Shown here one piece after another: positions 19,992 to 34,042 of a DNA stretch of 64,000 nucleotides. Origin of the DNA: Pochonia chlamydosporia 170 (taxonomy: Eukaryota > Ascomycota > Sordariomycetes > Hypocreales > Clavicipitaceae). Numbering within the stretch: the first letter of the stretch is position 1; each line of letters starts with the position of its first letter. Made by a program: the position numbers and the translations under genes. The DNA lies in assembly GCF_001653235.2 (NCBI RefSeq), contig NC_035794.1, forward strand, positions 3,534,001 through 3,598,000, written 5' to 3'. The notes beneath the pieces were generated by a model. That model was not told where the DNA came from. It saw only the letters and a program-made list of their open reading frames with translations, and did not search any database.

Positions 19992-22548
19992 ATGAACACG
20001 AAAATCACGCTTTTAGCTATGGTTACCGGTGTAACGGCAGCTACTCAAGCGGTTCTTGCGGGAACTGTTGACGTAAGTTCATCCCAGATACCTACCTGGC
20101 TGTATTGTGTACGAGGCTGATAATGTTCAGTGCGTATGCCATTGCACACATTTACCAAGATAGCCCACCTGCTGGTAGTCCGCTGACATGACCGGCAACC
20201 TCTAGATAGTACGTATTTATATATGCATGACAATACATGGGATTACAAGCAGCGTGCTAACACTGTTGCTGAATTATAGCCTGTAAATATTTTATTCCTG
20301 CTTGATAAAGAACCATGGGGTTATATGATACTAACAGGTATTGCCAACTCAAGGAAGTAAGTATACATTCAGGGTTGTTCTTAGCAAGCCTTTAACTACA
20401 AAAAGCCTGCTAGTTTAAGGAACTAAATCCTTGGGCAATGGGAAGTAGAATTCCAAGAGCCATGCTGACGTGGCTGGCAATTTTTAGTACGTAGGTATCT
20501 GCCCACAGCGGGTGAGGTCAGATTACTATCGGAATGCTAAAATACAAAACACAATGCTAGCAAGTACGCAGATGCCCACTGCTAACAAGAATTGAGCTTC
20601 CAGCATGCTAATCTTTCGCGAAACTACAGCGTGTCAGTATATGCTTGTAGTTGATTAGGAGTTAATTGCTGGCATGTGCTAGAATCTGACAAATTTAGTG
20701 TGTAAGCACCAGGGTTGACCGTGGGATTGTATGGGGTGGCTATTTGTTCATACAAAGCTTTAGGAAGTAAGTTTGATAAGTGATGTAGAGGTATTAGGCC
20801 ATTTTGCTAACACTGCTGGTAATTGGTAGACGGTAAGTATCTACCAGTAGCTAGCTCAGAATTGGATTATTCGCAGCTACTAACACAATTGTTAAACTCT
20901 AGCTAGTAAGTGTTTATATGTGCTCTAGGGAGAACGGATTACCATGCTAATGTAGGTGTCAAACTCTAGGGCGTAAGTATCGCCGGCTGCTGGTGCGAGA
21001 ATTGGATTGCTGCAGATAAGTTAATTTGGCTGTTGCACTCTAGCAAGTAAGTTTGCCTTGGTGGCTGACAAAGAACTGCCGGCTATAATAGGCTAACCTG
21101 GAAATATCAGCCTGTACGCTATCTACTTTACTCCGAGTCACTGGTAAAATGCTTATGCAACTTGTAAATTTAGTGTGTAAGTACGGAACGTTGTTGGCTA
21201 GTTACACGGCCAGGAGCACACTCACAGCTCGATGCTTTAGTGTGTAAGTGCCAACCCATTGGTGTTAAGCAACAATACCATATGGCCCTCTGACAAACTG
21301 GTGACCTCTAGCATGTGGGTATTTCCCCATAGCTAAGAAGCGTTCAGATTATTGCCGTATACTAATATAGCTGGTTATATGTAGGATGTATGTATTTACC
21401 TGTCCCTTAACAAGAATTGCACTGAGAAAGAATGTTAACATAAAGGGTTGGCGGCAGCACGTATGTATCTCTCTCTCACTGTTAAGAAACCTTATCGTGC
21501 AGCAAACTGAGATGGATGAGAAATGCTAGCATGTGAGCATATCCTATAGTTGCCAAAAACGTACTATTTTGACAACACGTTAAAATAACCGGCTATTTAG
21601 TGTGTAAGAATCTTTGACTGCCAAAAAAAAGTTACATTGAGTTGTTAATATAAGTACATTAGCGTGTAAGTATATGCCTTTAATGGACGAGAAATTAGAA
21701 TGGCAGCGGCATCTTATCACTAACACGTATCAACTTCTAGATAGTAAGCACCTCCACATGCTCGTTAAAAAATGGGAATAAACGATATGCTCACATAGCT
21801 GGTATCATCTAGTTTGTAAGTGCACTTCAAAGGGTAAAGGGGGTTATTAGTGCGTGGAGTGTTAACGTCCTTGGTAAACTCCAGCAAGTAAGTTCCATTC
21901 GTGGTTGTCCAGGTCTTTAATTGCTGGCGGCTTTAAACAACTGGCAATCTTTAGGGTGTAAGTATCTACCCGAAGTCGATAAAGAATGGCGACACGCTAA
22001 TATGAATGGTAACACGCAAGTATGTAAGTATCTACATGGTTGGCCAGGAATCTGCTTACGAGCATTGTGCTAATGATGCGGCCACAAATTCTTAGATGGT
22101 GAGTATCTATCCATAGTCAATATGGGGTTAGATCATACAGACAACTAAGATAGCCGGCAAACTCTAGAATGTAAGTATTACCCTGTAGGTAACAGAAACC
22201 CGGTTACGTAGTATGCTAATAGAGCTGGCCAGCACGTAAGTATCGAGTCGTGCTTGACGAAGAATTGAGTTGACGGCAATGCTAATACGCCTGGCACTTT
22301 ACAGGGTGTAAGTATCTACCTTTGTGTTCAATCGAAGATATCTTTTGCAGCATGCTAATATGTTTGGCAAATCTGAAAGTACGTAAGTGCCCACTGATGG
22401 AATAATCGGATTGCTCAAAGCATTGACTTGGACAGTGTTTCCCGCCTGGTTACAGTGCTCCATGAGCTCATCTGCTGGTAAAACTGAAGAATGTCAGTTT
22501 TTAGGTACGTTATCGCTGCAAAACTCCTGGTCGCTCGTTGTGTACTGA
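19992..22548 (+). CDS. Secreted knottin-like cysteine-rich peptide encoded by 34 exons, 32 of them exactly 3 nt
   Basis: Exon 1 (19992..20072) encodes a 27-residue start with a typical signal peptide (MNTKITLLAMVTG onward, Ala-rich c-region) and ends in phase 0. Then come 32 exons of one codon each, starting at 20131, 20206, 20280, 20354, 20488, 20561, 20630, 20699, 20764, 20830, 20903, 20970, 21044, 21111, 21174, 21241, 21312, 21385, 21458, 21530, 21601, 21663, 21741, 21813, 21885, 21955, 22021, 22096, 22168, 22233, 22305 and 22380. Every one lies between an AG acceptor and a GT donor, mostly GTAAGT-like. The last exon runs 22456..22548. The predicted product is 89 residues. Cysteine codons at 20131, 20699, 21174, 21241, 21601 and 22456 give C-x6-C-x6-CC-x4-C-x11-C, the inhibitor-cystine-knot spacing. 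That fold is shared by inhibitors, antimicrobials, effectors and toxins, so function is open. The terminal exon has a seventh Cys and its end is uncertain; a further intron is possible. No RNA evidence is available. Confidence 0.8.
20073..22455 (+). repeat. Tandem array of about 33 related spliceosomal introns, period about 70 nt
   Basis: Each unit is donor (consensus GTAAGTATCTACC), a middle often containing AGAATTGGATT, a branch site GCTAAC/GCTAAT, and an acceptor CTCTAG or TTTAG, followed by one codon. Intron lengths are 58-75 nt except one of 131 nt at 20357..20487. Similarity is clear by eye between units beginning at 20833, 20973, 21958, 22024, 22099 and 22308, while others have diverged. 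The pattern fits repeated duplication of an intron-plus-codon unit, or insertion of one intron family at every codon boundary. Confidence 0.85.
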
Positions 22549-23024
22549 TATGGCTAAGAATCGAAGAATTATGATGGTTCGCTACGGTGGGAGTTGTGCA
22601 ATACTAAAGCTACGTCGTTGCATGGAGTTCTCCGATGGAGTTTAACCTCGGCCGACCGTTGGCAGGATTCTACGCATGTAAATTGTAAAGGCTCTTATAT
22701 GTCTCATCTATCCGTCAGGCTCTATTGTTTCTACGGTGGTGAGAAGAAATGAATTGTTCATACAATTCTGCTGTAGGCAGACAAGATGCGAAGGCAAGAG
22801 AAATGCACAGAAGAAAAGACAAAAGACACGATCTAAGTATATTGGGCTAAGATATAGCCTCCCGCTAACACGTACGTCTCACAACTCGACCTAATCATAG
22901 CCGACCTTCAAGGACCATGGGACCAGTTAAACCCACAGTCTTGAGGAGTCGTCAGACCAGGTCTATCCTCACGGCCTGGACCAGGCCAAGTCCAAGTTCA
23001 ACCGGACCATTCCGACCACTGGCC
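22549..23024. other. Convergent intergenic region
   Basis: Holds the 3' ends of the single-codon-exon gene and the BTB gene. The intron-like unit pattern fades after about 22550. No other gene is seen. Confidence 0.5.
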
Positions 23025-30685: not shown

Positions 30686-33600
30686 ATGCCAAGAAATTGG
30701 GTCGCTCAAATTGCAGAGCATCCTGGTGCATCATTGGAGCAAATCCAAGGAGAGCCTGATTGGAGAATCAGGCACAACCATCGCACAGGATTCAAAAACC
30801 ACGACGGTCGCAGACCAGGATTCACAGAGGAATTGCTTCGTGAAGAATTGGAGGATGAGGACGTTGTGGAAGACGCGGAGAAGCAATTTGAACGGCTCCG
30901 TCGGAAAGCCCATCAGAATAAGCTCATCAATTTTCGTGACCTGGTGCACGGTATCAAAGACTTTCACTTGGTTCATCCAGACCTTCGGCCCTCAGGTTGG
31001 CGATACGTATTGGAGAGTACGGAAGATTGGATCAAGTATGGTCAGAACTGGCCCTGTAACTTGAGACGCCAGGAGCAACAGGAGCAGAAGCAAGGGGACA
31101 ATGCAGAAGATGATGAGCATAATGCTGAAACCGAGAGTTCCGCTGATGGAACGTCCAGTGATGATGATCAGGAAAAGCCAGACGGTGATGAGTCAACTTC
31201 GAATCTGGCAACACTGCTGAAACGGGAGCGGAAATATATCGACGGTCTAGAGAGCAATGATGGACTCGGCAAAAGTCCACAGGCTGCGGCTCGAGTAGAT
31301 TTAACAATCGACGAGGCAGATCAATTTACCCCAGACAACTGGTTCCCTCGGTCTCCGGAACTCATCCGTGTTACAGGTTCACATCCTGTGAATGCAGAAT
31401 CACCGCTGACAGAACTGTTTACGGCCGGTCTCATTACACCAAACTATCTGCACTATGTACGAAATCACGGCCCTGTTCCCCGTCTCCACTGGGAATTTCA
31501 CAAGCTGGAAGTCCTTCACCAAAACAACAAACATGTGTTCTCTATGGAGGACCTAACGACCAAGTTCTACACCATCAATATCCCTGTGTTCATGGCTTGT
31601 GATGGAAACCGCCGAAAAGAGCTGAACCAGATAAAAAGATCCAAGGGTTTCAATTTTGGCCCAGGAGCAGGAGGATGCGCTTATTGGAAAGGCGTGTTGT
31701 TGCGGGATGTTTTGCTTGATGCTGGCATCGATGATCCACTGTCAGTACAAGGACGGAGAAAAACAGATGTACCTCGCTGGGTAAACTTTGAGGGATCAGA
31801 CGACCTACCTGAAGGCAAATACTCTACTTGCATAGATCTAGAGTATGCCATGGATCCTCGAAACGACGTCCTACTGGCGTTTCAAATGAATGATAAGCCA
31901 TTGCCGCCTGATCATGGCTATCCCCTACGACTGATCATACCAGGCTACGTGGGTGGGCGATGTGTCAAATGGCTCAAGCGCATATGGACCAGCGATAAGG
32001 AGAACGACTCCTATTATCATATTTGGGATAACCGCGTTTTGCCGTCCTTTGTCACGGACAACAACGGTGAACTTGCAGAGGAGTTGTTCCGCCATAGGAG
32101 CACAGCATGCAATGAACAAATTCTCAATTCCGTAATCACACGCCCAGAGCAAGGAGAAAGAATTCCCCTGTCGACAGATCCGGCGGAAACTTACCGATTG
32201 CGTGGTATTGCATTCAACGGAGGTGGACGCATCGTACAGCGCGTGGAAGCGTCTGTTGACGGAGGTAGATCCTGGCTATATTGCTTTCGCAAGTTCCCGA
32301 AAAGACCGATTCGTCACACGGATAAATTTTGGACATGGATCCATTGGCACGTAGACGTACCGATACTTGATTTGATGAACGCAAAGGAGATTGCAGTTCG
32401 GTGTCTGGACGTTTCCAATAATATCCAGCCGTCTGAACTTACCTGGAATGTGATGGGAATGATGAACAACGCGTACTACAAAGTGCAACTGGAAATCACC
32501 ATGTCTGACAATGAGAATGGAGTTGGTACGCTGCTCTGTCGACACCCAGTTGAGCCTGGGTCCGGTGACGGAGGGTGGATGAAGCCAAGCGTAGAGAACA
32601 CTATTGAGCAGAAGAAACTAGAAGCTCGAGCGGGGTCTACCGGGAAGCGATTCACACGAGAAGAGATTGAGAAGCATGATGAGGAGAACGACTGCTGGAT
32701 TGTGGTGGACAAGGGCGTTTACGATGCAACCTCGGTGCTATCATGGCATCCTGGTGGCTCTGGCATTATCCTCGCCCATGCAGGCAGAGTCCACCAAAAA
32801 GCCACAGAAGAGTTCAACAGTATTCACGACTCTTATGCATGGGAGAAACTAAATGGTGCGTAAGATTTTCAGGCAGACTATTTTATTATCTACTAACAAT
32901 AATCTAGAATGCATGATCGGCACAGTGACAGACAAAGTAGCAAAGTTCCTTGATCAACTCAAAGTCCATGAAGAACAGGCAAAGAAAGCCTCTAGCAATA
33001 ACACCAACCAAGCACTTCAAGAACACCGGTGGACAAAAGTGAAGCTCATTAAACGGGAAGAAGTCAGCCCCGACACGCGATCATACACGTTCCAGCTCCC
33101 GGAGGGCAAGAACGTCCTTGGTCTCAACAACGGTCAACACATCGAGTTGGGTTTTCACATGCAGGACAAGATGCTCATCAGACCATATACACCCACACTA
33201 CCTATCCTACCTCCACTTCAGGTTAATGGCTCTGGAAACTCCACGTCATCTGAGGAGCTTCACGATGGCAAGGGCACATTCGATCTCACCATCAAAACGT
33301 ACTTTCCAAGTCAAGACGAGCCCGGTGGTGCCATGTCCAATATTCTCGACACTATTCCAATCAATGAAGAAGTTGACATTCGCGGCCCAAAGGGAGAGAT
33401 CATTTACAGCGGGCATGGACAATTCAGCATTGAAGGCAAGGCCTGCAACGTGAAGTACATATCTTTCGTCATGGGCGGAACGGGAATCACGCCAGGATAC
33501 TCTATTATTAGCCGTATTGTCCATACTGGCGATGACAACACACAAATACGCGTGTTAGATGCGAATAACACGGAGAATGACATTCTGCTCAAAGACGAGT

Positions 33601-33901
33601 TCGACTACTTTGAGAAGCACAGTGATGGGAAGGTGAAGGTTGCGCATGTACTTGCCAAGCCGGATGAAAGCTGGGGCGGTTTGAAGGGATTTGTGACAAA
33701 GGATATGATGCAGGAGCACTTGTTCCCTCCCGGGGAAGACAGTATTGTACTAGTTTGCGGTCCGCCGGCTATGATAACGAAGGCTGTTCTTCCTGGACTC
33801 AAAGGTTTGCTTATCCTATTATACTATTTAAGGTTACGAGTTTATGCCAATGCGTTGCAGAACTTGGATACGTTGAAGATGAGAATATATTTGGATTTTA
33901 G
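30686..33901 (+). CDS. niaD: Nitrate reductase (Mo-pterin / cytochrome b5 / FAD-NAD(P)H)
   Basis: Reduces nitrate to nitrite. Exons 30686..32855, 32908..33804 and 33861..33901 give about 1035 residues, long for fungal enzymes (often 860-980). Domain order is a charged N-terminal extension, then a sulfite-oxidase-type molybdopterin domain (YVRNHGPVP, with the Mo-ligand Cys in MACDGNRR) and its dimerisation domain. A cytochrome b5 domain follows (SWHPGGSG haem histidine), then a ferredoxin-reductase-type module with RPYTP for FAD and GGTGITPGYS plus LVCGPPAMI for NAD(P)H. Removing the third-exon intron restores the conserved C-terminus ending DENIFGF. The extension includes an acidic Gln/Glu/Asp-rich part around residues 130-180. 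No nitrite reductase or nitrate transporter lies beside it, unlike many fungal loci. Confidence 0.92.
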
Positions 33902-34042
33902 AACGGAGTAAATAAGTGCGTTTTAATGAACTCAGCAGAAATAGTGCCACTCATACTAGCACCAACAGTCAAACTCTCAATTCTCATCTCAGAATATCCC
34001 CTAAAGCTTGACCCCAGTGTCTCCTACCTCTGTAAAAACGAC

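Follow-up and report, generated by a model that had tools for sequence, protein, structure and literature searches.

The stretch of DNA analysed here (the window: 64,000 nucleotides, contig C5:3534001-3598000 of the 44.2-Mb, 49-contig genome of Pochonia chlamydosporia 170) carries at 19992-22465 a gene in which an 81-nt first exon and 32 consecutive phase-0 exons, each exactly 3 nt long, lead to a short last exon that closes the frame with a stop. Positions are those of the window, and all features of this gene lie on the forward strand. The first exon (19992-20072) holds the start codon and a putative signal peptide, its 27 residues having a signal-like beginning as judged by eye, and ends in phase 0 before a donor at 20073. 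Each of the following 32 exons is a trinucleotide flanked by AG and GT, and none of them is a stop codon.

As placed by the splice parse, the first eight single-codon exons are TGC (Cys, 20131-20133), ATA (Ile, 20206-20208), CCT (Pro, 20280-20282), GAA (Glu, 20354-20356), TAC (Tyr, 20488-20490), CAA (Gln, 20561-20563), CGT (Arg, 20630-20632) and TGT (Cys, 20699-20701), with an intron of 131 nt, about two units long, between the fourth and the fifth (20357-20487). The next eight are GAA (Glu, 20764-20766), ACG (Thr, 20830-20832), CTA (Leu, 20903-20905), GGC (Gly, 20970-20972), CAA (Gln, 21044-21046), CCT (Pro, 21111-21113), TGT (Cys, 21174-21176) and TGT (Cys, 21241-21243). These are followed by CAT (His, 21312-21314), GAT (Asp, 21385-21387), CAC (His, 21458-21460), CAT (His, 21530-21532), TGT (Cys, 21601-21603), CGT (Arg, 21663-21665), ATA (Ile, 21741-21743) and TTT (Phe, 21813-21815), and the array closes with CAA (Gln, 21885-21887), GGT (Gly, 21955-21957), TAT (Tyr, 22021-22023), ATG (Met, 22096-22098), AAT (Asn, 22168-22170), CAC (His, 22233-22235), GGT (Gly, 22305-22307) and TAC (Tyr, 22380-22382).

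The terminal exon is ambiguous. We prefer 22436-22465 (Cys, eight further codons and TGA; acceptor from the free parse described below, reading to the stop by eye), because its acceptor is the first AG past a branch-like TTGAC; the alternative, 22456-22548 (Cys, 29 further codons and TGA; by eye), uses the next AG and alters the C-terminal tail only, and a parse favouring an exon length (L) of 3 nt chooses neither the acceptor at 22436 nor that at 22456. The original prediction, made from the sequence of the window, had placed the end of the gene at 22548, which fits the alternative exon and lies beyond the end of the preferred one. Both readings begin with Cys, so that the order of cysteines it had given, C-x6-C-x6-CC-x4-C-x11-C, stands in either case. 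An AAT "exon" at 22490-22492, part of the chain of the L=3-favouring parse, lies past the preferred terminal acceptor and was excluded from all counts.

Within 19992-22600, the pattern AG-N(k)-GTRNGT occurs 23 times at k=3 and only zero to two times at every other k from 0 to 12. We parsed the region by the Viterbi algorithm with generic weights for donor, branch point and acceptor, leaving exon length free between 1 and 60 nt. Of the 34 internal exons returned, the first 32 measure exactly 3 nt, recovering the signal-peptide exon and the 32 phase-0 codons of the original prediction; the last two, of 13 and 7 nt, gave way to a terminal exon that was read by eye, since the frame runs into a stop there. 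When a single exon length was forced on the gene, L=3 scored 292 (34 introns), L=7 scored 73, and every other L from 1 to 15 scored at most 20; we read the L=7 array as an echo of L=3, the donor being taken 4 nt late within GTAAGT. The remainder of the window served as a control in 21 blocks; read on both strands, and at L=3 only, these 42 scored at most 18.3, with three introns. The antisense strand of the array region scored 13.2. A wider scan covered 26 sequences and 545,036 strand-bases (the window being partly double-counted) at 11 exon lengths (7 omitted) for chains of at least four introns; four arrays scored 95-292, other lengths within these arrays at most 34.2, their antisense strands at most 27.0, and everything else at most 24.1. 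On the spacing counts, the control blocks and the wider scan, we rejected a chance run of AG-NNN-GT.

Besides the array in the window, the genome contains three additional genes of the same architecture, with 9 (contig C1), 29 (C7) and 32 (C2) single-codon exons, a count that is a lower bound. The C1 array, found by a pattern search of the genome, lies 1.3 kb from the end of its contig: nine units of a 71-nt intron plus one codon (in order CAA CAA TGT GAT CAA TGT CCT CTT TGT) follow an exon whose last residues are LEKR, a site of Kex2 type, and the acceptor of a tenth intron stands immediately before TGA. Under a parse that charges lengths other than 3 nt with 3-6 score units, the C2 gene (ATG near 6,077,557) has 32 of 32 exons at 3 nt, the last acceptor again adjoining TGA, and the C7 gene (ATG near 2,611,372) has 29 exons at 3 nt and two longer ones, of 12 and 6 nt. 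C2 was parsed only with this charge; without it, 26 of 31 exons in C7 measure 3 nt, and three units that are 3 nt in the charged parse become exons of 5, 6 and 14 nt, whereupon the joined frame fails. The end of the C7 gene, an acceptor before GCATAA, was read by eye, and the charged parse terminates 35 nt further on. As read, all internal exons of the window, C1 and C2 genes are in phase 0. BLAST searches with part of the window array and one C1 unit revealed no further arrays, although diverged arrays would escape them, and five contigs (L050-L054) contained none within their initial 6 kb.

We consider the window gene to be, with a probability of about 0.9, a functional spliced gene whose single-codon exons would encode a small secreted peptide with six cysteines, spaced as in inhibitor cystine knot (ICK) peptides, and whose array would have arisen by duplication of an intron together with a codon. 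This reading starts from what the DNA itself displays, namely the exon layout, the four arrays, their open frames, the codon and splice-site bias, the hypervariability of the C1 codons and a shared 3' hairpin; the proposal of a secreted-peptide gene made of single-codon exons, with which the original prediction began, is supported by the three further genes, their codons, the C1 variability and the hairpin. Several points weigh on the other side. Exons of 3 nt in phase 0 preserve the frame whichever of them is skipped, and each offers just three bases for holding splicing factors; the units of the C1 and window arrays share ancestry, such that regular spacing is not independent within an array, as the original prediction had rightly cautioned; near-identical introns stand beside very different codons; and ICK spacing alone is weak evidence for a knottin.

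The codons bear on these points. Together, the four genes have 102 single-codon exons (32 in the window, 9 in C1, 29 in C7 and 32 in C2; the 12- and 6-nt exons of C7 left out). Among these there is no stop (5.4 expected, P=0.004; P=0.0017 under position-by-position composition), which extends to all four genes the absence of stops claimed for the 32 in the window, and there are 19 Cys codons (4.0 expected, P=1e-8; position by position, P=0.003). NAG is absent (5.8 expected, P=0.003; position by position, P=0.07), as is GTN (7.6 expected, P=4e-4; position by position, P=0.05). Because an exon reading NAG would itself end in a competing acceptor and one reading GTN would begin with a donor, such a bias is expected from selection for the splicing of 3-nt exons. 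Likewise, Gln, Glu and Lys are written as NAA and NAG in a ratio of 13:0 in single-codon exons (three of the 13 lie in the C1 array and are possibly of shared ancestry), versus 140:177 in five open reading frames (ORFs) of the window (P=2e-5).

The skipping of frame-neutral exons and their scant room for splicing factors would suit a transcribed array from which splicing leaves out most single-codon exons or includes them variably, producing a pool of in-frame variants. Such behaviour would be compatible with a real gene, and a precedent reportedly exists in the variation through differential splicing of schistosome micro-exon genes that the title of a 2010 paper by DeMarco announces. However, the 13:0 ratio of NAA to NAG is what selection to include each codon would produce, and the frames of C1 and C2 reach TGA directly behind the last acceptor, and we therefore regard variable inclusion as distinctly unlikely.

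The introns of the four arrays differ in how alike they are: near-identical in C1, diverged in the window, and beyond recognition in C7 and C2. In C1, the youngest array, units differ pairwise by 6% in their introns and by 63% in their codons, and variability within the unit is highest at the three codon positions. Were the arrays non-coding tandem repeats, or each a single large intron, AG-NNN-GT would simply be inherited from a repeated intron-like unit, in keeping with the shared ancestry of units. But the 3-nt spacing is kept in four arrays, two of which have introns without recognisable similarity, no stop occurs in 102 codons, variability in C1 peaks at the codon positions, two genes end with an acceptor next to TGA, and the array lies between a signal-like phase-0 exon upstream and, downstream, a hairpin that is also found with ordinary genes, all of which makes this explanation very improbable.

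The contrast between introns and codons in C1 is, in turn, the main argument for another origin of the same gene, in which a continuous gene that already existed would have received near-identical introns at its codon boundaries through an introner-like spread. Insertion would have had to hit every codon boundary, and exclusively in phase 0. The 74-nt C1 unit has no copy beyond its own array at E<=5 (10 of 10 matches lie inside it), and a single diverged look-alike of the C1-type intron occurs in L038. Six introns (two from C1, two from the window, one each from C7 and C2) folded no better than their shuffles (z from -0.93 to +0.77), unlike reported fungal introner-like elements. We thus take insertion to be an unlikely origin, though one worth keeping in view. 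Duplication of the unit is favoured over it because duplication keeps spacing and phase exactly, the C1 unit is without copies elsewhere, and insertion would need every codon boundary.

Downstream of the stop of the window gene, at 22612-22658 on the forward strand and hence by position in the 3' untranslated region, lies a hairpin whose outer stem covaries and that recurs behind 18 genes in the genome. The stretch conserved downstream of the window and C1 genes, used as a probe, located 17 places, and a core pattern added the 18th; this pattern also has five two-mismatch matches, and a reversed control pattern has eight matches in all. The 18 comprise all four genes with single-codon exons and 14 others that resemble secreted-peptide genes, and upstream of every one (18 of 18) there is a short gene with a signal-like beginning, again by eye. 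Base pairs of the stem hold in 96.9% of cells across 17 sequences, with 11 cells doubly changed, and the covariation score exceeds that of 500 of 500 shuffles, although one and the same alignment served to derive and to test the structure and the sequences are related; slid controls paired at most 51%. Other measures were less striking, the number of doubly changed pairs being matched in 64 of 500 shuffles and the pair types in 16 of 500. Rfam returned no match to the hairpin at E<=5 in the five of the 18 loci searched. Taken by itself, the hairpin is a candidate new regulatory RNA element, and our guess is that it acts in mRNA stability or localisation.

Two observations concern the genes of this set. 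At one member with the same hairpin (L037, C4:4772500-4781500, minus strand), near-identical tandem repeats of about 35 codons lie past an intron at the pro-peptide Arg, as seen by eye. In L009, L037, L043 and L046, also by eye, the first intron falls directly after the Arg that ends the pro-region, in ordinary members and in members with single-codon exons alike, and the arrays may have grown from that first intron.

The predicted window product has six cysteines in the spacing C-x6-C-x6-CC-x4-C-x11-C, which fits a loose ICK pattern; so do 6,415 (3.2%) of 200,000 random permutations of its residues. Its only match in PDB at E<=10 is 2h1z (E=0.34), a structure named hybrid atracotoxin that we take to be an ICK peptide. 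In Pfam it comes closest to families of spider toxins and ICK peptides, all below their cutoffs (Toxin_9, E=0.007, 17.0 bits versus a cutoff of 21.3; Toxin_35, 16.6 bits versus 26.8), and no Pfam profile recognises the product above cutoff. The knottin of the original prediction is thus borne out in its spacing, whereas the random orders and the weak matches leave the fold plausible at most; the product resembles ICK peptides in cysteine spacing and is without significant homology to them. We rejected a toxin label for the gene because the profile matches are weak and sub-cutoff. To our knowledge, no ICK gene is built from single-codon exons.

Products of the other genes are diverse. That of C1 is a nine-residue tail with three cysteines, and that of C2 has four cysteines; neither the C7 nor the C2 product matched any Pfam family at E<=10, and the nearest PDB entry to the C7 product is granulin A (E=0.034). 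An intronless gene with the same hairpin, L035, encodes a product similar to that of C7, with a score of 74 that was reached by 19 of 20,000 shuffles and, when cysteines were held fixed, by 521 of 20,000. The loose ICK pattern does not accommodate the products of C7, C2 or L035, and protein searches with the L035 and window products found no homologue.

In the course of events that we infer, from transcription and splicing through secretion to the fold and role of the peptide, exon 1 would provide the secretion signal, phase-0 introns would part the 32 one-codon exons, and the short last exon would close the frame; splicing would yield a small secreted peptide whose six cysteines are spaced much as in ICK peptides. 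Splicing would most likely proceed by intron definition and probably from 5' to 3', with each 3-nt exon being ligated to the lengthening exon on its upstream side before its own donor comes into use. The gene belongs to a hairpin-bearing set of at least 18 secreted-peptide-like genes, four of which have single-codon exons. As to the likely order of evolutionary steps, the array would most probably have grown from a unit of one intron and one codon through successive tandem duplications, one residue per copy, after which codons would change under selection and introns drift; later loss of introns would fuse codons, as in the two longer exons of C7 (12 and 6 nt). More tentatively, and at slightly less than even odds, the intron plus codon could be a general unit of gene growth that adds one residue with each duplication, in which the codon would be free to vary and the intron would provide homology for recombination. 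Because all exons are 3 nt and in phase 0, splicing could remove any subset of residues with the frame intact, and so generate disulfide-rich peptides combinatorially, and subsequent intron loss could yield an ordinary gene, perhaps the intronless gene with the hairpin.

Other systems share parts of this architecture. The exons of schistosome micro-exon genes measure 6-36 nt, several codons each, whereas here there is one codon per exon. Those genes also encode secreted proteins, and duplication and shuffling of micro-exons have been discussed for them (PMC5825161). By the features that define such genes, the window gene has mostly very short symmetric exons (its first 32 internal exons, 3 nt) and a signal as judged by eye. 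The exons of aphid bicycle genes are longer than one codon. Like the genes described here, bicycle genes are split into numerous small internal exons (an average of about 17 exons per gene), encode fast-evolving putative effectors and were found via gene structure, but their internal exons are reported as nearly all phase 2 (PMC9168663); those here are phase 0, and the phase-2 rule holds for none of the window, C1 and C2 genes. In vivo splicing of a 3-nt exon has been reported for Drosophila homothorax, in a paper that also cites 3-nt exons in troponin T and NCAM (PMC7392893), with one such exon per gene there and 32 in succession here. Among filamentous fungi, Trichoderma Xlr2, a transcription factor gene, contains a single 20-nt microexon, before which no functional microexon had been described in these fungi according to the abstract (PMC11121469). 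Fungal introner-like elements and sister stwintrons likewise comprise related introns multiplied within one genome, and are described as dispersed and as symmetric or structured (PMC8469720), in contrast to near-identical copies at one locus; we rejected introner-like elements as such given the restriction of C1 unit copies to a single array and the unremarkable folding of the introns. Among the papers listed by word-matching searches of PMC full-text articles, a collection outside which preprints and most subscription papers lie, none describes in its title or abstract a gene with serial single-codon exons.

Elsewhere in the window, on the forward strand, the ORF at 52212-53063 matches the Pfam family ETX/MTX2 barely over its cutoff (E=6e-5, 23.5 bits versus 22). 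A nitrate reductase at 30686-33911, also on the forward strand, is divided between two overlapping ORFs, one with the Mo and cytochrome b5 part and the other with the FAD/NAD part, possibly joined by an intron. Among the 120 matches listed out of 8,000 scored candidates, its closest named relative is from Trichoderma barbatum (66% identity), followed by Fusarium, Lecanicillium and Colletotrichum, which suits a probably hypocrealean fungus, and the first ORF is 97% identical to a protein of source "lgn".

If transcripts confirm the predicted splicing, exon size would be at the coding limit, one codon, across a whole protein domain, and the spliceosome would be joining more than 30 exons of 3 nt serially, offering a direct test of intron definition and of splicing order. 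Genes of this kind would probably be overlooked by annotation software, and the linked hairpin provides a handle for finding them. They would also represent a concrete route for the origin and diversification of new secreted peptides, along which the near-identical introns of C1, the diverged introns of the window, the unrecognisable introns of C7 and C2, and the intronless hairpin gene would form a series. The three further genes in the genome suggest that peptides of this sort may be built up codon by codon.
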